From NCBI GenBank assembly GCA_008360955.1, contig LUCM01004861.1, positions 125,179-189,178 on the forward strand: 64,000 nucleotides of DNA. The letters are read 5' to 3'. Below are positions 3,390 through 59,694 of the stretch, one piece after another (the first letter of the stretch is position 1; each line of letters starts with the position of its first letter). Source of the DNA: Fasciolopsis buskii. Taxonomy: Eukaryota; Platyhelminthes; Trematoda; Plagiorchiida; Fasciolidae. The position numbers and the translations under genes are program-made. Below the pieces are notes generated by a model. The model made no database searches. It was not told where the DNA came from and saw nothing but the letters and a program-made list of their open reading frames with translations.

Positions 3390-6300
3390 CCAGTATCGCT
3401 TTTATTTTCTGAATCTTTTTTCTATATAGCTCTTCAGCCTATCATTTTGCAGTTGATCTCGCACTAAGCTTGTTCTCTTTCTTTTTTTTCAATAGACAGT
3501 GCTATGAGGTAGGTGGCAAAAACAAAGCATGTTGGTGAAAGATTAATGGTCACAGGGACAGACAAATGAAAGCCACAAGAGATGCATATGTCTGGTGGCT
3601 TTCTTTTCAGTCAGCTCCTGCGTACTAACTTTCCTATTCGATCAAGTACTTTTAGTCGGGACAGGTGATCACATCAGTCGGATGCATGCACAATGCATTT
3701 TGCTGCACAAACTGATTGAGGCTCGCTCATCGGTAGATTTTCGAGGGTGATATATTTGTTTCCCTGAGCAACCGTTTGTATGTCTGCGCATGTATCTCCA
3801 CAGCCAAAAGGTCTTTCCGGCACTTACGAGCATTCGCGATTGATACACATCACCTACTTACCCAGGTTGACAATTTCCCCGGATAGACGACTGCACACCG
3901 ACAGATCATAGCACTTGTTTGTGTTTCTGCAGACCATCTAATTTGAAGCCAAGTGGTCCTTCTTGAGGTGGTTTATAATGGTATATAAATACGGGAACTT
4001 CTTTCTGATTCAAGATAAAAGAATCTACTCAACACCAGCAGATTATCTCAGTAACGTAACGAATAACCGCTGGCAAAAGGCCCCGTCAGGCTCAATCGCG
4101 GGCGAAATTGGGAATGACAAACATCGCATTTGTTCATTATAACCTCATATATATTGTGTTCATATTGTGGCGATCTGATGTTCTGAAAGTAATGGTGTTA
4201 AGTGAGTCCTAGCTTGGCTCCATTTTCCAGCAGTTAGTTTACTTAGTGAGACCAAGTTACGTGGAAGAAATTATCAGACAATTGCTACACATATTAAGGC
4301 GTTCAAGTCTATCTTTAAAAAGGGCGTTGTTTTCCAATCCAAACTCGTTCGCCTTCTGGCAAGAATAACTTTGCCAACTGATGTTCTCTAGAAACCAAGG
4401 CATGAATCACTTGGGAACAGTGAGAATTGTTTTGTGACAGCAAAAAGGAAAAGAGACGTCTACGCTTATATTTAACCCGACAATTGCTGGTGCGTTCGGG
4501 TTCCGATTTCCTATGAGCGGCTCCCACTAATTATAATGAAAACAAACAAATAGAACAGGCACCAAATTTATCCTTTAGTAGACTAAAACACTTTTTACTG
4601 GTGTTCCCCGGTTGGCACTCGCTGTTCGATCATTCCGTTGGCTAATTTGGCCCATTATTATTGACTGACTTTAACATGCCGTTTTTTTCTCGCCCAGTTG
4701 ATCGACTGACGTTGTGCAATATCATCGCATTTGTGCTGAACTTTGTCAACGATAATGGATATGACGAGTCATCATATCCTACTCTTACAAAAATTACCGT
4801 ACATTGACGGGGGAAGAAAAGAAAAGTGTAAAGAACTACTGGAAAGCCAATAAAATAACAACAAATGATGAACAGACCCGTTTCTAGTGCAATGAGCTGC
4901 TTGGTATTATTCGCAATTTATCCTGTACAACTGGCCTGTCAGGTGGTTGATTTTCAACCCTCCTTTTTCTTCTGCATGCTAGGCGTGCGTGTCCGTGGTG
5001 TGTCTTAAAAACTGATTGATTGTAAGTAGAGGTTCGCAAGTCCGTAGCCGACCACTTTTTGCGATTACCCGCGCAAGCATGCATAGCCGCTTCGCGCATA
5101 AGAGATCGATGACCAATAATCAGCCACCCCGTCTTTCGTTTGGAGGAAGTTAGCGGCAACTATGTACTGCACAGGAGTAATAATAAGAACGATTTTATTA
5201 GGTACTTAAAGTAATTTGACTATAGGATTTTTTCAAGTGGTCGAAGATGAATACAACTTACGAGAGATGACGCAAGCTTAAGCGTGTAAAAAGTATTAGA
5301 AAATACTGGAAGAAGCATTAATGTGGCAGACTCCAATTATATCAGCTGACTTCACTAAATAGTTTAGAAATTATCGTGGTTCAAAATATGGCTACGAAAA
5401 GAGCATACTTGTCCAAGTGTGGTACAGTAGAGGCCAACAAAGATATACTATGAGCAGTCGGAAGGATTATTTGGGTCACCCAAGACGAAAATGGCATCCT
5501 CAAGGCTTTAGTTCTTCTCGATTCGGGCATTTCAACAATATCCGGCAACAGAAGTTATTCCGTCGGATTTTATTATTCAGACACTTCTGATGCCCTAGGG
5601 CTCCAGATTTCAGCTATATAGTGAGAAGACTAAATCTATACTGGAACGTCAATTTTTGTACAAGTCCTACATTTTCAGTCCTAAACATAATAAAAGAAAC
5701 GAAAACTAACCACGATTGAATTCTACTACCCCTTGATTCATGGAATAATCAGCTAGCCTTGAGATCAGTCGTCACAGCATTGGGCTTTGCTTTTTTAAAG
5801 CCGCTTCTGGGTATGGGTGAGAAAAGAGACCGAGTCAAACCTCAAATACTATTATCGTAACCTGACTGGAATTGGATTAGTGCTTCAAATGACCGCATAT
5901 GTACTCCCCATTTTTGTCCAAACGAGGAATCGGATTTTCCTAAATTTTATCAGTTACTTTGAAATCAGAGCTTCATGCTGCCCGTGAAATTCGTACCGTG
6001 GAACGTTATTCAACTTTCGACACAGCTAAGTTGTGAATAGTAAATTTAACTTATTCGAGCATGACATACGGCTATTTGATATTAAAAAAAATAATAATAA
6101 GACAAACTGATGTTTCTTTACGCGGTTTTATCCTCTGGCATTCTGGATACAATTTAGTCCTGTCAGTTCGCTCACTCCGTGAGCAGAGCAAGCTTCATGA
6201 CTGAGTACTAAAGGTACGTTATCATTTGGGTGATTGAAACATTCTTTCTACTCCAGTTCATGTCTCTGGTGACAGACCCCAATTCGTTTCATTTGAACAC

Positions 6301-48119: not shown

Positions 48120-48395
48120 CACTTGTACAAGTATAGTATGTTTGGACGGGGGACCACCGAGCGAACATACCAGATGAAAGGCAATAACCATGAAGCTGTT
48201 CTTCTGCTTTATGGGAAATTCTTTTCACTCATCCAGATATCACTTACATTTCTATCTACTCTAGGGGCACTCCTCCCTCTTCCTTACTGTTGGCTCGGCC
48301 CAAATGACAAAGAATTTTCAGTGAACTACGATTGTGGTTCTTCTGTGAACTCTTCAACGAAAAGCTCCTAAGCACAATCTTAACATTGCAAGTTA
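48120..48395 (+). repeat. Diverged unit of a 300-base repeat family
   Basis: The first half (GGCAATAACC at about 48180, TTTTCACTCATCCAGATATC at about 48223) and second half (TGTTGGCTCGGCCCAAATGAC at about 48288 onward, then a GAACTCTTCAACGA block) line up in order with the better-preserved units at 48861-49325. It ends against the TA microsatellite. No protein is evident. The family is unknown to me. Confidence 0.7.
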
Positions 48396-48403
48396 GATTT
48401 TGG

Positions 48404-48406
<3 letters not shown>

Positions 48407-48448
<42 letters not shown>
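48407..48448. repeat. (TA)n microsatellite
   Basis: About 42 bases of uninterrupted TA, placed exactly between two units of the 300-base repeat family that point in opposite directions. Confidence 0.95.
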
Positions 48449-48450
<2 letters not shown>

Positions 48451-48751
48451 CAGCAAGTATTATCTGGATGAGTGAACAAAATTTGCCCGGGAGCACACGA
48501 CCGGTTTGGCGGTTATGTCACTTCGTATGTAATGCTACCCGGTTGCTCTTAGTCAAACCATCCAACAAAAAAAACAAGAAAAAAATTGTAACTCCGAATT
48601 GATTGATACTTTCTCACCAGAATCGAATCTGTATCAAAAGAAGTGTGCATGGAAGCTCTTCGTCGAAGAGTCCACAGAAGAATCACAACTGTGATTCGTT
48701 GATAATTGTTTGTCAGTTGGGCTGAGCCAACCTTAGGAGCGAAGGCAGAAT
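48451..48751 (-). repeat. 300-base repeat unit, inverted; left arm of a long hairpin
   Basis: Read on the - strand from 48751 downward this gives the second-half block (CCTAAGGTTGGCTCAGCCCA, then the CTTCGACGAAGAGCTTCC block), a linker, and the first-half block with GGTCGTGTGCTCCCGGGCAA, ending in AGATAATACTTGCTGCTT. The same order occurs on the + strand at 48861-49160, so the two form an inverted repeat of about 300 bases around a spacer of about 110 bases. The linker differs most between the arms. Confidence 0.85.
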
Positions 48752-48756
48752 GCCCC

Positions 48757-48836
48757 AGAGCGACAATAACCGCGAAACCGGTCGTGTACTCCCGGGCAAA
48801 TTTTGTTCACTCATCCCAGATAATATTGTTGCTTCG
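48757..48836 (+). repeat. First-half block of the repeat family, in hairpin loop
   Basis: CGACAATAACCGCGAAACC followed by GGTCGTGTACTCCCGGGCAA and TTTTGTTCACTCATCC: a further copy of the conserved first-half block, placed in the spacer between the inverted arms and joined directly to the second-half block of the right arm. Confidence 0.85.
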
Positions 48837-48860
48837 TTATCTATATCACATGTATATTGT

Positions 48861-49160
48861 GGCGCATCTCTGCCCTCGTTCCTAAGGTTGGCTCAGCACC
48901 AACTGACAAACAATTATCAACTAATCACAGTTGTCATTCTTCTGTCCACTCTTCGATGAACAGCTTCCATGCACACTCCTTTTGATACAGATTCGATTCT
49001 GGTGAGAAATATCAATCAATTCGGAGTGTACAAGTATGTGGATGTTTGGACAAGGGAGCACCGGGTACGCATACCTGACGAGTGACAATAACCGCCAAAC
49101 CGGTCGTGTGCTCCCGGGCAAATTTTGTTCACTCATCCAGATAATACTTGCTGCTTCTAT
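48861..49160 (+). repeat. 300-base repeat unit; right arm of a long hairpin
   Basis: Second-half block (TAAGGTTGGCTCAGC, AATTATCAACTAATCACAG, GATACAGATTCGATTCTGG, CAATCAATTCGGAG), linker, then first-half block (AACCGCCAAACCGGTC, GGTCGTGTGCTCCCGGGCAA, AGATAATACTTGCTGCTT). It is nearly identical to the reverse complement of 48451-48751 outside the linker. Confidence 0.85.
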
Positions 49161-49349
49161 ATATACATATGTATATTGTGGCGCATTCTGCCCTCGTTCC
49201 TAAGGTTGGCTCAGCCCAACTGACAAACAATTATCAATGAATCACATTTGTGGTTCTCCTGTGGACTCTTCGACGAAGAACTTCCATGCACACTCCTGAC
49301 ACCACAAATTCGATTCTGCCGAGAAACATATATATGTATATATATAGCC
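49161..49349 (+). repeat. Second-half block of the repeat family plus AT repeat
   Basis: CCTAAGGTTGGCTCAGCCCA and TCTTCGACGAAGAACTTCC repeat the second-half block once more, in tandem with the unit to the left. It ends with GCCGAGAAACATATATATG and a short AT repeat, the same type of edge as the TA run on the other side of the cluster. Confidence 0.8.
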
Positions 49350-52600: not shown

Positions 52601-53665
52601 CTGACTTCCGCCAATCAACCTACGGTGGTTGCTGGTCACCTAATGCATATCGAGGTTAATCAACGGATGAGGAACCAAATGGCTTGTATTGAGTTGGAAG
52701 CGGCACACTGATATCAGAAAGGCTGCTGTGATCAAGTTACTTTGCCGCCCATCTCCAAACAGTCGATCGAGCGCAGTGTCACAGGACACAAACGGTACTG
52801 GGGTGCCAACCAGCAGCATTAGGGATGACACAGACCATACGTGATCAAAAAATACCATACGAAGAAAGCTGCTTGATCCAGGATATCACAACCGCTTTCG
52901 TAGCTCTTTTCAACCAGCTGAAATGATACTTGCAAGAACCCTGGTAGGACAATAGGCTAGTGAGGGACAGTAACAGCCTTCCAGAATTGGACAAAGAGCT
53001 TGAAGTACCCGGTGAAACAGTTTTAGCTAGGCGGTCAGGGACGACGCCTTAAGGAGAAGGGAGTCATATAGAGTGAAAATGAAGGGGGTAAATCGGCGTA
53101 ACCGTTGACACTCAGGTATCGCAGGTTGAGTGCAAAGGGCAAAATGGCACCCACGCGCAATATTGTAACTTTTGCGATGATTGTTATGCGCTTTTGTAGT
53201 GTTGCTACGTTTTATAACAACGCAACTTCAGTCGAGACCCCTGACGCACTACACCAGTTGAAGTCCTAGAGGACGGTGCAACCAGTCACTCGGTTTGAAC
53301 AGTTTTATCTCATTTTACCTTCGTGGGGTCTTTGTTTGCAGTATGTCATAAGGTTATTCTTGTGAGCGACGATATTCACGTATCTAGAGTTTTATTCCTT
53401 TGCGGCTATATCATTTCGTGCTGTGAAAGCTTATTTTGTGCCTATTTTCTGAAACCAGATCCCGAATATTTGGAAAGGCATAAACACAGGGTAAAATAGA
53501 TGAATTATATTTACTTGAATTTCTTACGCTTAAGATTAACGAACATACAGAAGAAATAGGCAGTGGTAGTGACGAAATTTCCACCTTGAAAAGTCGCTCC
53601 CGTGAAGCCAAATGCGATCTGTTAGGAAAATGAAGTTCGGATGTTAGTGTGCATTTTTCGGACGA
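52601..53665. other. No gene recognised between gypsy remnant and MULE
   Basis: Some of 52601-53060 may be the C-terminal part of the gypsy pol gene, but no block is clear. 53140-53290 is moderately GC-rich and could be remnant LTR or another repeat. The rest is AT-rich with no gene. Confidence 0.4.
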
Positions 53666-53672
53666 TTGAGGA

Positions 53673-53680
53673 TATAAATA
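53673..53680 (+). promoter_or_regulatory. Possible TATA box of the MULE gene
   Basis: TATAAATA about 190 bases upstream of the proposed start codon at 53867. A good splice-acceptor-like TTTTTCGGTGTTTCAG ends at 53844, so a short 5' untranslated exon and intron is conceivable. In AT-rich DNA such a box also arises by chance. Confidence 0.25.
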
Positions 53681-53866
53681 GGTGTTTTACCAGAAATCGC
53701 TTCAGTTGCACACACAAGGCTGCCGTGGATTTTCTTGCGGACGTGACTACTGTCTGTATAGATGATTCAGATATTTTCTCACCTTATGTTCATTCAAGTT
53801 GTTCCGGTTTTTCGTAATTTTAATATGATTTTTCGGTGTTTCAGCCTTAATTGCTGACGGTACTTT

Positions 53867-54330
53867 ATGATTATCACAGTGTTAGCTCAGAGAATTGGCC
53901 CCGAGAGCATCCGCGCTCTCTTCTCCCCTCGCTCCAAATGTTGCTGCGTCCACAAACGTCGCAGACTGCAAGTCAGTCGTCGGTAAGTCTTTTATTTTTT
54001 CAAGCAATAGTTATTTGCAGATTTCCAAATAGAAATTGCCCAGCCTTCGTCATGTTGTGTGCAGTTAGTAGGCAATCCGGGGTGGTCGGATGTTACCTGC
54101 AGTACCATCATTCCTTCTATCTGTCTCATGACCGTTATTACGCACGCAATCGCAGGCTAACCCCAGAGCAGGAGTCGCACGTAATCAGTGTAATGGACAT
54201 TTTTGGCAATGCCAGGGAAGTTTGCGGACACACCAGGGAAAGTTATAACCGGCTGGTGACAGTTCGCGACTTGAATAATGTTAGTCGTAATTTCATGTTG
54301 ACGACTACTGCAACGACGTTGTTCGCGTGA
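53867..54330 (+). pseudogene. MULE transposase N-terminal zinc region, two exons
   Basis: I place the start at ATG 53867. Exon 1 (53867-53982) reads MIITVLAQRIGPESIRALFS, then SKCCCVHKRRRLQVSRR. Removing the 38-base intron joins it in frame to exon 2, FPNRNCPAFVMLCAVSRQSG (54022 on), giving a Cys-rich, basic zinc region like the FAR1/FLYWCH-type N-terminus of MULE transposases. Exon 2 continues with a His pair (YHHSFYLSHDRYYARN), then RRLTPEQESHVISVM and VTVRDLNNV. The frame stops at 54328-54330, before the DDE core. About 45 bases upstream of the core other frames hold coding-like pieces (FHVDDYCNDVVRVRL), so a frameshift and possibly a deletion separate the parts. Without splicing, exon 2's frame stays open leftwards, but the Cys-rich block is lost. 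Confidence 0.65.
53983..54020 (+). other. Probable 38-nt intron in the MULE gene
   Basis: Starts GTAAGTCTTTTATTTTTTCA, with a perfect GTAAGT donor and a long pyrimidine tract, and ends TTATTTGCAG. Splicing joins a basic Cys-rich block to the next Cys block in frame (the codon is split CG|A). Flatworm genes often have introns of about 30-40 bases near their 5' ends, which supports both the intron and the host group. Confidence 0.65.
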
Positions 54331-54372
54331 GACTTATTGCGCTTACAGGATACCCCTAGTTTGCTCAACTGA

Positions 54373-55053
54373 GATGTAGTTAGGTCCGCGTTTTTCGTGC
54401 TGGATAGTTTTCGGGGGTTTTCAGCAGATGCGACCCACCAGATTAATTGCTGCGGGTATGTACCTTGGCACGCAGTGATGGTGCAAGATAGCCCGTTAGG
54501 TTGTGCACTATTTTGCACTCTGCTTCCGAACGAAAGCGGAGCAAGCTACCGCCGGGCGATTAGTGTCATAAAGAAAATGCTACCCTCAACTGACAAGGTG
54601 CAGACAATGGTCGTCGAGTGCAGCTTGGCGCAGCTAAACGCCTTTCAAGCTGCTTACCATGAAACCAGGGAAACATTTTGTCGGTTTCATGTTCTCTTGG
54701 ACACATGTCACTGGTGCGACAGCCTTCCAGTAAGTGTAGAAGGGGATGGAAGGCGTATTCATCAATGGATGCGCAATTTAGTTTTTGCATCGACGAAGGT
54801 AGACTTCGATGAATTTAAGGCGGTGATAGGCAGTCGTTGTCCACCTGCACTTACGTACCTGCAACGTGCATGGCTGCCGTATGTAGAAATTTAAACAAAT
54901 CACAGTGGTAAATGGTTCCTCAATTTTGGCATCATCACAATCAACAGGGTTGAGGTAGAAAATATACATTTAAAGCGTGATCTCTTAAAGAGATCCATGC
55001 CTTTCGATGTTTTTGCTGATAATGCGGTGCACGGAGGAGTCAGACGAGGCTAG
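54373..55053 (+). pseudogene. MULE transposase DDE catalytic core, one internal stop
   Basis: One frame runs from 54373 to 55053, broken only by TAA at 54892-54894. It reads DSFRGFSADATHQINCCGY, in which the Asp of the DAT block (54427-54429) is the first catalytic residue. GYVPWHAVMVQDSPLGCALF follows, then the block usually holding the second Asp, here VVECSLAQLNAFQAAY with Glu at 54616-54618. Next come FCRFHVL with the family's C..H pair (54679 and 54688), WMRNLVFAST, and after the stop TNHSGKWFLNF, INRVEVENIHLKRDLLKRS, matching the TNN.VEN.H..LK block. The core is near full length (about 227 codons). The Asp-to-Glu change and the stop suggest inactivity, though Glu could in principle still bind metal. 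Confidence 0.8.
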
Positions 55054-55244
55054 GCCTCGCCGCGCTGTTAAGGAATTTCTCGGGAGATACGTGCCACCCC
55101 GGAGTTTGGAGATGCATGCAGACCTGTTAGACAGAATTAGTCAGTTGTGCTGTCGAAGGACACCTTGCAGCATATAATTTGGTTTCCCTTTAGAAGGTTA
55201 GTTGCTTCTGGAACGTTGGTTGTTCAAGGTCCTGCGGCGCACAT

Positions 55245-55685
55245 GTGTTGATTGGCGTTCAGCCGTCATGCACGTGCACTTTCTGTAACCAATGGCCGTT
55301 GCCATGTAGCCACGTATTATGTGCATGGGCGTTCCTTAGATATGACGGACATTTGCGTGTCCGCATTGACCATAATGACGAGGCGCTAAGGAGTTTGTTT
55401 GGGGAATTGCAAAATACAGCTAGGTTGAGGGTGATGGATAAGAAATTGACTTTCATAGCAGTACATGGGGACGAAAATACTTTGGTGCATTCTGCCAGGG
55501 GAGCAGAAGTAAATGCATTCGTCGATTACCATGTTCGCATTAACAGGACACAGAGAATTAGGAAACCGGTTGACCTTAGTCCCAGCCCGTCTTCATCCGT
55601 TCAGGTGCCTACTTCTAGACGTAAAGATTCTGTTACTCTCAGGGAGACCGATGACGTTGACATGCAGCTTGTCAGTGATGCCTAA
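55245..55685 (+). pseudogene. MULE SWIM zinc-finger domain
   Basis: The frame contains SCTCTFCNQWPLPCSHVLCAW: Cys 55269, Cys 55275, Cys 55305 and His 55311 make the CxC...CxH pattern that defines SWIM fingers, which in MULE transposases follow the DDE core. After the finger come a helical part (ALRSLFGELQNTARLRV) and a Ser/Pro-rich, basic region (SPSPSSSVQVPTSRRKDSV) that looks like a flexible linker. A stop at 55683-55685 ends the frame, but the same frame reopens and leads into the PHD finger. The segment between the DDE core and this frame (55054-55244) is decayed; a piece reading AVKEFLGRYVPPRSLEMHAD is visible in another frame. Confidence 0.8.
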
Positions 55686-55715
55686 CAGTTAGTAAGCTTT
55701 AGGAAGCACGCATTC

Positions 55716-55953
55716 ATGACTTCTGCTGGCTGCAGACTACAGGAGTTGAAGAACCACAGTCAATGGGGGCCACCACCCTCGCCAACTACGCAGGACCTAG
55801 GCGTCGCATGCAGACAGGAGCGACTCTTTGCGGATTTGGATGTAACAACGAAATGGGTGAAGTGCGACGTATGCCATATTTGGATTCACTCCAATTGCGC
55901 TAACTAGATGGTCCAAGAGGTGTACGTCTGTGTGCATTGCCTGTCAGCAAGAG
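55716..55953 (+). pseudogene. PHD-type zinc finger downstream of the SWIM domain
   Basis: In the same frame as the SWIM segment, with one stop between them, KWVKCDVCHIWIHSNCAN is followed by a TAG (55905-55907) and then MVQEVYVCVHCLSAR. Ligands Cys 55863, Cys 55872, His 55887, Cys 55896, Cys 55929 and Cys 55938, with Trp before His, give the PHD pattern W.(K/Q)CD.C..W.H..C....Y.C..C. The first Cys pair may be CGFGC (55829-55843), which lies in another frame, so one indel is likely. PHD fingers usually bind histone H3 tails; that would be a targeting device for a transposase, but this is inference. A GAG/GTAGGT donor-like site follows at 55954. Not a MULE part I know well. Confidence 0.65.
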
Positions 55954-56294
55954 GTAGGTGACAAATCCATGCACGTCATGTCATTCAACAAGGTGAAAGG
56001 GGCATTCCATTCTCTTTGCCATTTTTAGTCCAGGTGGATCTGATGAGCCCAAGATCAAACAAGACGGAAGAAGTAGACCCAGAAGTGCAAGGAACAATGA
56101 CCGCGAGGAGACGGGATTGATGTGAATGCCGCCAGGGTCCCTTCAGCGCCACCACTGTCAGACTACTAACACCGACTTCCAAGACAGGTCATTACTGTGA
56201 TGACCTCATAGTAACAATTAGCCTGTTGGTATGTGAGTCTTCTTTCACGCACACAACAACGGTTGGGTTTCAGGGCCTCTTCTGCGGCGGAACA
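55954..56294. other. Spacer after the MULE gene
   Basis: 341 bases between the end of the PHD remnant and the first 221-base repeat arm. No poly-A signal cluster or clear boundary seen. If the repeat arm is the MULE's right terminal repeat, this is the element's 3' untranslated region. Confidence 0.4.
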
Positions 56295-56515
56295 TGGATT
56301 TATTCCTCCGAACCGCTTGTTTAACCGAACGTTGACCGCCAAGCGCGGTTGCCATTTGCGCGTTAATCACGCCTGCTTGGCTCGCAAGCTCATGATGAAA
56401 CATACTCAACATGCTACCGCTTCTGACTATATTTTTTGTACCGGTCAAGTGTCCAGGTTGCCAGTATTGCAATCGTACCGAGCCGAGTAGGAGTGACGCA
56501 CGAGTGGTCACAAAC
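56295..56515 (-). repeat. 221-base inverted repeat, left arm
   Basis: Identical, as far as I can read, to the reverse complement of 58331-58551. On the + strand it starts TGGATTTATTCCTCCGAACC and ends GAGTGGTCACAAAC; the flanks diverge at once on both sides. CpG-rich. No matching 8-10 base target duplication lies outside either pair of edges. Both strands remain open through it, which reflects composition and not a gene. Confidence 0.95.
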
Positions 56516-56904
56516 TTTCAGGGCCAGCAAACTTAATGCGCGATTCGCGGTAGGACAATCCGTTCAACAGTATATTCTTTTCTATTACGAGGAAGCTAGC
56601 AAACATATATTTATATATAGTGAAATTATGTACCAAAACACAAAAAGCTCATTTTCACCAAGACAGCCGCTAAATTGTACGGGTTTGGCATGCGAAATAA
56701 CATTTTCGATTTCAAACTCAGCCGTGAAAGCGTCACACGTTAAGCAAATGCTCATTAGTGCAGACAACACAGCACGCGTCACTTTTTTATTTTTCTGAAC
56801 AAAATGATAAATATTATCCTCTAAGCATCGCTTTCCCTTGTTAATTGTTTTTGCATGAATTTGCCAACTATTAACAGCATGCGTTTAACGTCGATCGTTA
56901 CCAG

Positions 56905-57216
56905 TTATCGCGGGGTGGGCGGTTTGCAATACTCGGTTATCGCGGATTGACGAGTTGCCTCTAACGATTTGAATGCCTGCAAAACATGGTCGTTTCGCGG
57001 AGTGGAGAATTCGTCAATACCGTAAGCAATCAGCGTCTTTTGGATAGCCCGGCTGTGTTCTTCGTGTCTTCTAACCCGCTCTGGGATCATTTGAGCCATG
57101 CACTGTGGCATTTGTTTTCCGCATTCCATGTTCGGCCTCTCTTGTTGAACGAACAAACCATCTGACGCTGAGGAGTGACCTAGTGAGTTCAATGGTGAAC
57201 TAAAAACGTTTCGCAA
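56905..57216 (-). CDS. Unrecognised 103-codon frame inside the inverted repeat
   Basis: An ATG-initiated frame on the - strand, MRNVFSSPLNSLGHSSAS onward, with a well-mixed, polar composition (QMIPERVRRHEEHSRAIQK, IDEFSTPRNDHVLQAFKSLE) that reads like protein, probably alpha-helical in its second half. It ends CKPPTPR followed by a stop. It lies between the two 221-base arms, so if those are terminal repeats it would be the element's cargo. I recognise no family. It could be an exon end of a decayed transposon gene. Confidence 0.35.
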   Translation of the reverse strand: MRNVFSSPLNSLGHSSASDGLFVQQERPNMECGKQMPQCMAQMIPERVRRHEEHSRAIQKTLIAYGIDEFSTPRNDHVLQAFKSLEATRQSAITEYCKPPTPR

Positions 57217-58330
57217 GCAGGAAGTTTGCGCCCGTCGGAAATGTCACGGTGTCCGTGGTAAATCCAATAGTGTTATGGGAAATGTATTAGGATGAGTTAC
57301 AATCAGGCAAAGGAGTGTACTATTCTCGGTTGTCGTGATTTTTACTTTTGTTTGATAATGCTGACCTCCACCATGCCCAGTACCGAGAAGCTGGCTAGTG
57401 GGTTTGTTCATCTACCGGTTAGATGTGAACTGCAAAAATAAACGTGCATTAACATCGATGGAACTTTAACGAAACTTTTCCGATAGATGCAGTGGGATTG
57501 TCGGACCACAACGACTACCCGAGGAGTTTTTGGGATTTCTTCCTCTTATGCGACAACAGTTTTTAACTAAAGGGGGCACAAGGGCAGTTTACATCATTCA
57601 AATATTTACAAATGAGGTATTTTCAGTAAATCCGCTTTGTCACCGGTCGTGAAAATGCTGTACAACTGAACGGACGTCACGGGTTTTTTGTGAACCCATG
57701 CACCCGGTAGAAATTTTGCACTGTATAATATGGCCATCAAAGGAGACACTGAATATTAACGTCACAAATTCCACTTATGAGGACGCAAAAACAATCAGAA
57801 ATGCAAATGTCAGCCGTGATAATATTGGATTAGTTTTCCCATTCGTCTTAATTTTTTTCCGGTTGTCGGGATGGTGAAACATGGTTAAAAGCTTTTAAAA
57901 TTTTAAAATGCTCATGAGGACTGATCGGTGGACGTCAACACTCCGATTAAATAGGATCAATAAGTCACAATGTGAAGTAGGGCAAGAGCATTTCCCTAGA
58001 ACGCCACGCTTGGAGGGATGGGTAAGATTACGATGATGCCAGCAACGTCGAATGCAATGGAAGAAAACCTGTCGGAAGTTAGCGCGGGTGGAATTTTGAG
58101 TGTGGCTCAATGATGACAATGAGAGTAGAATATGAGGAAGATTTAATCCCTTCCTCGATGTTTACATGGGACTCCATGCCCAAGATATCAAAGATTGCAG
58201 CGGACCATGAAATCGATTCTCCGGGTTGCTTGTATAACCAAATGCTGGCGGCACAGTGAGTTCGCCACATTCGCGCTGAAAAACGGAATGTTCTAACTTG
58301 GATCACGTATCATGTTTGCTTGCGCTTAAC
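57217..58330. other. Interior of the inverted-repeat interval, no gene recognised
   Basis: About 1.1 kb between the unknown frame and the right arm. Open frames are at most about 75 codons and unremarkable. No transposase block was found in 56516-58330. Confidence 0.45.
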
Positions 58331-58551
58331 GTTTGTGACCACTCGTGCGTCACTCCTACTCGGCTCGGTACGATTGCAATACTGGCAACCTGGACACTTG
58401 ACCGGTACAAAAAATATAGTCAGAAGCGGTAGCATGTTGAGTATGTTTCATCATGAGCTTGCGAGCCAAGCAGGCGTGATTAACGCGCAAATGGCAACCG
58501 CGCTTGGCGGTCAACGTTCGGTTAAACAAGCGGTTCGGAGGAATAAATCCA
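58331..58551 (+). repeat. 221-base inverted repeat, right arm
   Basis: Starts GTTTGTGACCACTCGTGCGT and ends GGAATAAATCCA. It is a full-length reverse-complement match of the left arm without a visible mismatch. The interval enclosed by the two arms including the arms is 2257 bases. Such length fits MULE terminal repeats (often 100-500 bases), but the arms could also be two independent insertions of a dispersed repeat. Confidence 0.95.
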
Positions 58552-59444
58552 CCTTCCTCTACAGGATCCTCCTCCTAGAATACCTTTGGAGAATGGCTTC
58601 GATTAAAACCATACGCAACAAGCTGGAAACTGGCGGATGTCTTGGGCCTTGTCATCGTTGGGCAATCGGAAATTTTGCCGCTCTGCTGGTGGTCCCGTGG
58701 GTTATTTTTCGGGAGCTGATCGTGCGCCGGACATCCAAGCTGGAAACCACCATTAGGAGGTGAACGTAAGAGGTGTCATCCCCCGGAAAAGTTGCGCCTT
58801 CATGCTGTTGCAGCCGAGCAACCCGCTAGATGTGCACCGGTCAGATCGGTGGATCAAACCACGTCCCACACCCACGAGACTCACCCTCGCCCAGAATATT
58901 CGCCATGCGCGGTTGAATGAGCGCCCGTTCTTGGGTTTTCTCCGTCCTCTGGTGCGCGCATGGTGTCGACCATGGGACCGATGACTGTCGTGCAGGAATC
59001 CGTGAAGTCTCCCCGGTCCTAGGATTTTTCTAAAAGAGGGTAAGACAGAGACAAACTGGTGGAAACGGTGCTCGTGAGCACCGGTGGATGTTCAACATAT
59101 TGCCGGTCACCCAACATCGGTCAGTCCTGTCCTTGTCGGTTTAACACGGGGGCCGCATGTCCATCGACGCATACATTATCGCGACAGGCTTGTTATCCTG
59201 TTCACAGCAGCTGTGCACTTGCAATCTTTGAGTATTCATTCGTCAGATGTAAAAATGGTGACCTAATCAGATAAAAAACGGGTTGCTTTACTTTTCGGCC
59301 GTCACGGCTGCTTCCCATAACCGGCACTCCTGGTACGATTGGTGGTGCCGTCGTATCGGTCTCACCCGTAGTTTCAACGAATGGTGTTGATAATATTTGA
59401 AATCGGCCGGGATTTGGGGGACTCATGAGATTGGAGGAGTTCAT
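58552..59444. other. GC-richer stretch, no gene recognised
   Basis: The frames 58320-58763 and 58760-58984 run on from the repeat arm but have no known motif. The composition is like the repeat arm (CpG-rich), so it may be the interior of another element of the same family. Confidence 0.4.
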
Positions 59445-59694
59445 CGTTTGACCTGCATTCTATCGTGGAGGGTTTGTTACGATCGATAGACAACGCGACC
59501 TGTCAGCGGGCAACGTCCAAAGTGAATGTTTTAGAAAGGCTTATTATCGTCGGAATTGGTGGAGTGCTGAGTATAATTTTGACAGGAACGTGCGAACGCG
59601 GCGTGTGTGAGCAGTGCGCAGATGGCAACCGCGCTTGTCGGTCAACGTTCGGGTAAACATGCGATCCGGAGGAATAATCCATGTTCGGGTACAC
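59445..59694 (+). repeat. Diverged third copy of the 221-base repeat
   Basis: Strong match over its last 75 bases: GCGCAGATGGCAACCGCGCT, then GGTCAACGTTCGG and GGAGGAATAATCCATGTTC. The rest aligns more weakly, with a GAGTATAATTTTGACAGG-type block in the right place and an insertion of about 20 bases. Same orientation as the 58331 arm. It shares the extra ATGTTC at its right edge with the left arm's outer flank, so the true repeat may be a few bases longer than 221. Confidence 0.75.

Follow-up and report, generated by a model that had tools for sequence, protein, structure and literature searches.

What does a finger of the type that reads histones do at the end of a transposase, and does it belong to the transposase at all? 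The question is raised by a Mutator-like DNA transposon (MULE) on contig C2899, in a stretch of 64,000 nucleotides analysed here as a whole (the window), whose host is probably a flatworm. The initial annotation had described a MULE transposase gene at 53867-55953 with a DDE core, a SWIM finger and a PHD finger in this order on one strand, and this arrangement is borne out by Pfam matches, by motifs and by alignment with an open copy of the same element (L009). The gene does lie there, but the interval was slightly short: the remnant that aligns with L009, in three consecutive pieces, extends over 53659-55958 within an element of 53565-57021 (Table 1).

The decayed copy in the window

The domains follow one another as N-terminal finger, DDE core, SWIM, linker and PHD, in a gene broken by two frameshifts and by nine in-frame stops along the path, those of the first remnant at 53815, 53821, 53848, 54328, 54370 and 54892 and those of the third at 55191, 55683 and 55905; an additional stop at 54986 falls within the overlap of the pieces. 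The SWIM and PHD segments had been described as sharing a frame and lying one stop apart, and they do: the separating stop is TAA 55683-55685, and a second one, TAG 55905-55907, interrupts the PHD itself. The two target-site duplications (TSDs) agree at 6 of 9 positions, the three mismatches being transitions (by inspection). The window copy is a dead Mutator-like DNA transposon.

Table 1. Features of the MULE copy in the window
Feature	Positions	Strand	Basis or remark
Left TSD ATAGGCAGT	53556..53564	.	decayed partner of GTAAGCAAT
Whole decayed MULE copy	53565..57021	+	ends by alignment to L009:2020-6281; edges shared by several copies
5' terminal inverted repeat (TIR)	53565..53584	+	20 bp; 17/20 match to the 3' TIR
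Transposase remnant, L009 residues 5-470 (N-terminal finger region and DDE core)	53659..55014	+	alignment to L009
Possible tiny intron GTAAGT...TTGCAG, 38 nt	53983..54020	+	proposed from splice-like ends only
Cys/His-containing N-terminal finger	54058..54117	+	matches L009 residues about 140-161
MULE / ZSWIM1-3 RNase H-like (DDE) domain	54424..54696	+	Pfam match, known MULE motifs, alignment A2
TINRVEVEN motif, presumed catalytic E	54937..54963	+	known motif, alignment A2
Transposase remnant, L009 residues 460-515, shifted frame	54980..55147	+	alignment to L009
Transposase remnant, L009 residues 513-829 (SWIM, linker, PHD), second shifted frame	55131..55958	+	alignment
SWIM finger CTCTFCNQWPLPCSHVL	55269..55319	+	motif; alignment A2
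PHD finger, 7/8 ligands, TAG stop inside	55800..55940	+	motif; alignment to L009
3' TIR	57002..57021	-	20 bp
Right TSD GTAAGCAAT	57022..57030	.	decayed partner of ATAGGCAGT

The open reading frame 54373-54891, which holds the open part of the DDE core, matches both PF21056 (ZSWIM1-3_RNaseH-like; 3e-07, 30.9 bits, above the curated cut-off) and PF10551 (MULE; 3.9e-07, 30.9 bits against a cut-off of 27.6). Its catalytic residues are presumed from known MULE motifs and from alignment A2: D1 would be that of ADATHQ (54424-54441), the D2 position (VVECSLAQ, 54610-54633) carries E, so that the catalytic D2 has been changed in this copy, and TINRVEVEN is taken to contain the catalytic E. The SWIM finger is recognised by its fit to the CxC...CxH pattern; a Pfam scan of the window ORF that holds it reported no family, and the segment of the homologous protein P0001 aligned to it matches PF04434 with 21.0 bits against a cut-off of 19.6. 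At the N-terminal side, the L009 residues that correspond to the window's finger overlap the end of a ZSWIM3_N match (PF21599) at 50-159, and the L009 stretch resembling the possible intron keeps the frame.

The PHD, read as KWVKCDVCHIWIHSNCAN*MVQEVYVCVHC at 55851-55940 with GVACRQER upstream at 55800-55823, has lost only its first cysteine, which is replaced by G. On its own it yields weak, partial Pfam matches under the cut-off (0.003 and 0.0067). Of the search with MULE, SWIM and PHD profiles that had been proposed for this gene, the DDE core came out above the cut-offs, but the window's SWIM frame remained unmatched and its PHD stayed below. The finger is nonetheless not a chance motif, because its alignment with the L009 PHD region shows 64% identity across 89 aa (E 5.8e-37), and that explanation was ruled out on these grounds.

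Copies elsewhere in the genome

In the genome searched (703 Mb in 6974 contigs), PF10551 matches at least 93 places at E <= 0.001 (150 of 172 candidates scored). We retrieved 31 of these 93 loci with their flanks, as well as 8 shorter loci, 3 of which duplicate copies already retrieved, and compared 37 distinct copies, that of the window included. One of them, L009 on contig C1396, is open over 831 codons, with DDE, SWIM and PHD in a single frame between intact ends; Pfam finds in it ZSWIM3_N (3.1e-08), ZSWIM1-3_RNaseH (5.7e-16) and MULE (2e-12, 47.8 bits) and, below the cut-offs, PHD over the full length of the domain (0.0052) and SWIM (0.041). According to the edges of alignments between copies the element occupies L009:2020-6281; it has 20-bp TIRs matching at 17/20 positions (by inspection), and a perfect 9-bp duplication, GCAAATGAG, borders it on both sides. 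Among the 11 copies displayed, the window's included, exact duplications of 9 bp were seen in L009, L010, L016 and L020 and of 10 bp in L018, those of the remaining six being mismatched (by inspection).

Because the window copy has the same ends as L009, its PHD lies inside the mobile unit. The PHD region of L009 (91 residues) is found at no fewer than 150 genomic places (150 scored of 485 candidates), and at least 40 of the 93 MULE-domain hits are followed within 4 kb, on their own strand, by a PHD hit; the true number may be higher, because neither search scored all of its candidates. In 25 of these 40 pairs the spacing is 1268-1413 bp. At the level of the 37 copies, the PHD region matches at E <= 1e-15 in 21 (L009 included) and only weakly or in fragments in 8, and no match at E <= 1 was obtained in the other 8, some of which are shortened, deleted or run into N. 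The 589-codon frame of copy L010 covers DDE and SWIM and stops before the PHD, of which a scrambled remnant lies downstream. In the distant copy L014, whose identity to L009 is about 30%, 577 codons are open; a C4HC3 finger follows downstream in a frame different from that of the open DDE part, and the second of the two tryptophans discussed below is Ser in it. We note that L014 2585-4703 represents another MULE family, only distantly related. The initial 200 bp of L009 are matched at 98-100% in nine places, counting L009 itself, which suggests recent activity of one subfamily.

Several other sequence features were observed in passing. L003, L028 and places such as G000:C4703:5588-6286 appear to be internally deleted derivatives: much of the transposase in the middle seems to be gone, and the 5' end seems to be retained together with the 3' part that encodes the PHD. 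A dispersed repeat of about 280 bp is nested in the 3' part of the window's MULE (56289-56564, minus strand) and recurs in the window at 58282-58557 and, partially, at 59545-59686, with related stretches in L013, L015 and L008; repeats of about 50-150 bp, both direct and inverted, also cluster at 48138-49329 of the window. Between its transposase gene and its 3' end L009 carries an AT-rich, self-complementary repeat array (5327-5552), a near-simple TA sequence that recalls the minisatellite reported for Rehavkus. It has matches at the corresponding position of other copies and did not turn up in that of the window.

Relatives and conservation

Among the roughly 8000 candidates scored in each protein search, the decayed protein of the window found no homologue when used as a query, and a search of viral contigs was also without a match. 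Searches with L009 and with profile A1 were productive. Among the candidates scored, L009 recovered P0001 (648 aa, 33% identity, 2.7e-102) and, far more weakly, P0002 from Centaurea (942 aa, 22%, 5.3e-14), a protein named as an OTU-domain protein in which no C4HC3 finger was seen by eye; profile A1 recovered P0001 again and P0003 from the digenean fluke Dicrocoelium dendriticum (763 aa, 4.8e-139). This fluke relative, together with the initial annotation, is the basis for taking the host to be probably a flatworm. P0001 and P0003 are single open frames with the domain order of L009, end in a C4HC3 finger and share this finger-bearing architecture at 33-34% identity. The initial annotation had asked for intact homologues with the PHD continuous with the transposase, and L009, P0001 and P0003 are such proteins; both close relatives recovered carry the finger, and the frame of L010 ends before it.

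The eight PHD ligands and two tryptophans are invariant in all three of these proteins. Among themselves they are 43-54% identical across the DDE core and 33-50% across SWIM; for the PHD the figure is 40-43%, and for the linker 15-23%. At this level of comparison the PHD is conserved about as well as the SWIM finger. Within the genome, in 20 copies aligned at E <= 1e-15 with L009 as the reference, 180 of 199 ligand or cage cells are kept, as are 578 of 776 at the other PHD positions. The dN/dS ratios against L009, from a set that excluded L009 itself, the duplicate L005, the duplicates L004 and L006, L014 and pieces of less than 40% identity, are 0.19 for DDE, 0.30 for SWIM, 0.43 for PHD and 0.57 for the linker, the PHD not being sharply apart from the linker; since selection before insertion and decay after it are mixed in these values, they are only a weak sign of constraint. 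As read from the shared frames and ends, the PHD is part of the transposase.

Nature of the finger

The PHD segment of L009 taken alone scores 27.0 bits against the cut-off of 24 for the Pfam PHD family (PF00628), and PHD is matched at E <= 0.1 in all five segments examined, RING and C1 being weakly matched in 2/5 each. In the full-length proteins L009, P0001 and P0003 the same family scores 17.2, 22.4 and 15.6, under the cut-off of 24; therefore automatic annotation based on cut-offs would miss the finger, and PHD is indeed absent from the precomputed Pfam domains of P0001 and P0003. These scores suggest that the PHD ends of such transposases can be overlooked.

A profile of the five PHD segments, three of them from this genome, retrieved 19 sequences from the PDB at E <= 0.01; KDM5B (2ma5, which we take to be its PHD3; 1.6e-08) comes first and KDM5A (2kgg, 1.2e-07, with the same sequence as 2kgi) next. 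The invariant tryptophan pair of the transposases aligns with Trp18 and Trp28 of KDM5A PHD3 (alignment numbering), and in the account of 2KGI excerpted from PMC9814790 these two residues alone form the H3K4me3 cage. The predicted cage residues of the transposase PHD fit an H3K4me3 reader. AlphaFold models were poor (mean pLDDT 35.1 for two sequences and 54.9 for the window PHD alone), and Foldseek with the poor model of the window PHD listed many PHD and CW domains, none of them at E <= 0.001.

Insertion sites

Measured against the background at 100-400 bp, G+C content in 21 upstream flanks is higher by 0.097 in the 25 bp just outside the TSD (sign-flip p about 0.0003) and by 0.115 in the TSD itself (p about 0.002); 10 downstream flanks show a rise of 0.065 (p about 0.07). 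The flanks are partly dependent, L020 and L047 lying at nearly the same site. The sole target signal is this local rise in G+C, which lies within about 34 bp on the upstream side and is weaker downstream; no wider G+C shift was seen in the flanks. Such a rise is equally explained by a preference for DNA sequence. The maize Mu transposase is not known to have a PHD or other reader domain; if it has none, the insertion bias of that element needs no PHD. Mu insertion sites are described, in the excerpt of PMC2774946, as biased in composition and enriched in H3K4me3 regions.

What the finger may do

The anatomy of the protein suggests a transposase of the cut-and-paste type that would also make contact with chromatin. 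The N-terminal finger and SWIM could help to bind the terminal repeats and the DDE core would cut and join the DNA, while the PHD might anchor the complex to nucleosomes in which H3K4 is methylated or the H3 tails are unmodified, and thereby steer insertion toward open chromatin near active genes. Since the transposase ends in a finger of the histone-reader type, the element may choose its sites by the chromatin marks of the host. That the PHD reads histone H3 and biases insertion is a reading to which we give slightly better than an even chance. More tentatively, and with a good deal of doubt, one may envisage a flatworm MULE lineage whose catalytic chain itself includes an H3K4me3 reader, each molecule finding active promoters and inserting there, as a one-protein counterpart of RAG1/RAG2 that would have been conserved down to about one-third identity because the element thereby stays in expressed chromatin. 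A built-in, conserved reader-like finger makes histone-guided insertion directly testable.

The finger could instead be a zinc finger that contributes to structure or contacts DNA or protein, for example in multimerisation, at the element ends or with a host factor, and play no part in histone reading. We consider this possible, though not the explanation we would choose: the weak RING and C1 matches, the cage tryptophan missing in L014 and a targeting signal limited to local G+C all agree with it, as do the other accessory zinc fingers that Table 1 of PMC6446971 gives for several MULE groups; however, it does not account for the invariance of both KDM5A-type cage tryptophans in L009, P0001 and P0003, nor for the fact that the best solved-structure relative with a known cage in our comparison is an H3K4me3 reader. 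A quite different origin would be that the PHD belongs to an unrelated host gene, as the initial annotation had considered, or that it was recently captured from one by the window copy. MULEs tend to acquire fragments of host genes, according to the excerpt of PMC6446971, and the host genome does encode a KDM5-like PHD (contig C6435). On the other hand, the transposase finger is enclosed by the TIRs, occurs at the 150 or more genomic places mentioned above and is in frame in the three open relatives, which rules out a separate host gene; moreover, the first ligand pair of the C6435 finger is spaced differently (by inspection), so that the transposase finger is not a recent copy of it and recent capture of this host finger was discarded as well. 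Taken as a whole, a host-gene origin is extremely improbable.

A further question is whether the element should be regarded as a flatworm member of Rehavkus rather than as a new variant. As characterized in the excerpt of PMC6446971, Rehavkus departs from MULEs in having a PHD finger and, ahead of its 3' TIR, a minisatellite; it shares with the element studied here a MULE-like transposase with PHD in one ORF and the 9-bp TSD, and L009 in particular combines an AT-rich repeat array before its 3' end with a 9-bp TSD. However, the entry in Table 1 of the same source lists PHD only, without SWIM, from arthropods and annelids and with TIRs of 26-400 bp, whereas our element has a SWIM motif, 20-bp TIRs and strong ZSWIM1-3 and MULE matches, and its array is near-simple TA and was not found in the window copy. 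On this comparison, made by description only, membership in Rehavkus appears unlikely, and we prefer to treat the element as a variant of its own.

Comparison with known systems

The closest solved structures, the PHD fingers of KDM5A and KDM5B, resemble that of the transposase, down to the two-Trp cage of KDM5A PHD3, but they belong to host demethylases and differ in the spacing of the first ligand pair. The PHD of RAG2 reads H3K4me3 and works with a transposase-derived recombinase; there the finger resides on the partner protein RAG2, whereas here it is on the catalytic chain. With MULEs of the ZSWIM1/3 type the element shares the DDE core (PF10551/PF21056), SWIM, the 9-bp TSD and TIRs, to which it adds the C-terminal PHD, its TIRs being short (20 bp). 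Curupira and MULE-Ov are, like it, flatworm MULEs, and Curupira has SWIM and a 9-bp TSD (excerpts of PMC6446971 and PMC8293314); by description only, Curupira differs in being listed without TIRs and without PHD, and the present element has TIRs. Ginger1-9_HM from Hydra is a DNA transposase that also ends in a PHD, but with a Gypsy-integrase-like core and an Ulp1 domain (excerpt of PMC2836005); the legend of Fig. 1e in that source also names Mutator transposases in an Ulp1/PHD alignment, the excerpt stating no PHD for them.

The initial annotation had regarded a C-terminal PHD as non-standard for MULEs. This holds insofar as a MULE with both SWIM and PHD was not found described in the literature searched, which lay outside subscription papers and Repbase Reports, but it needs qualification, as Rehavkus is described with a PHD in the excerpt of PMC6446971. 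PHD fingers in DNA transposases have already been described (Rehavkus, PMC6446971; Ginger1-9_HM, PMC2836005), and the flatworm MULE with SWIM and PHD, compared with Rehavkus by description only, is a new variant rather than a new kind of transposon.
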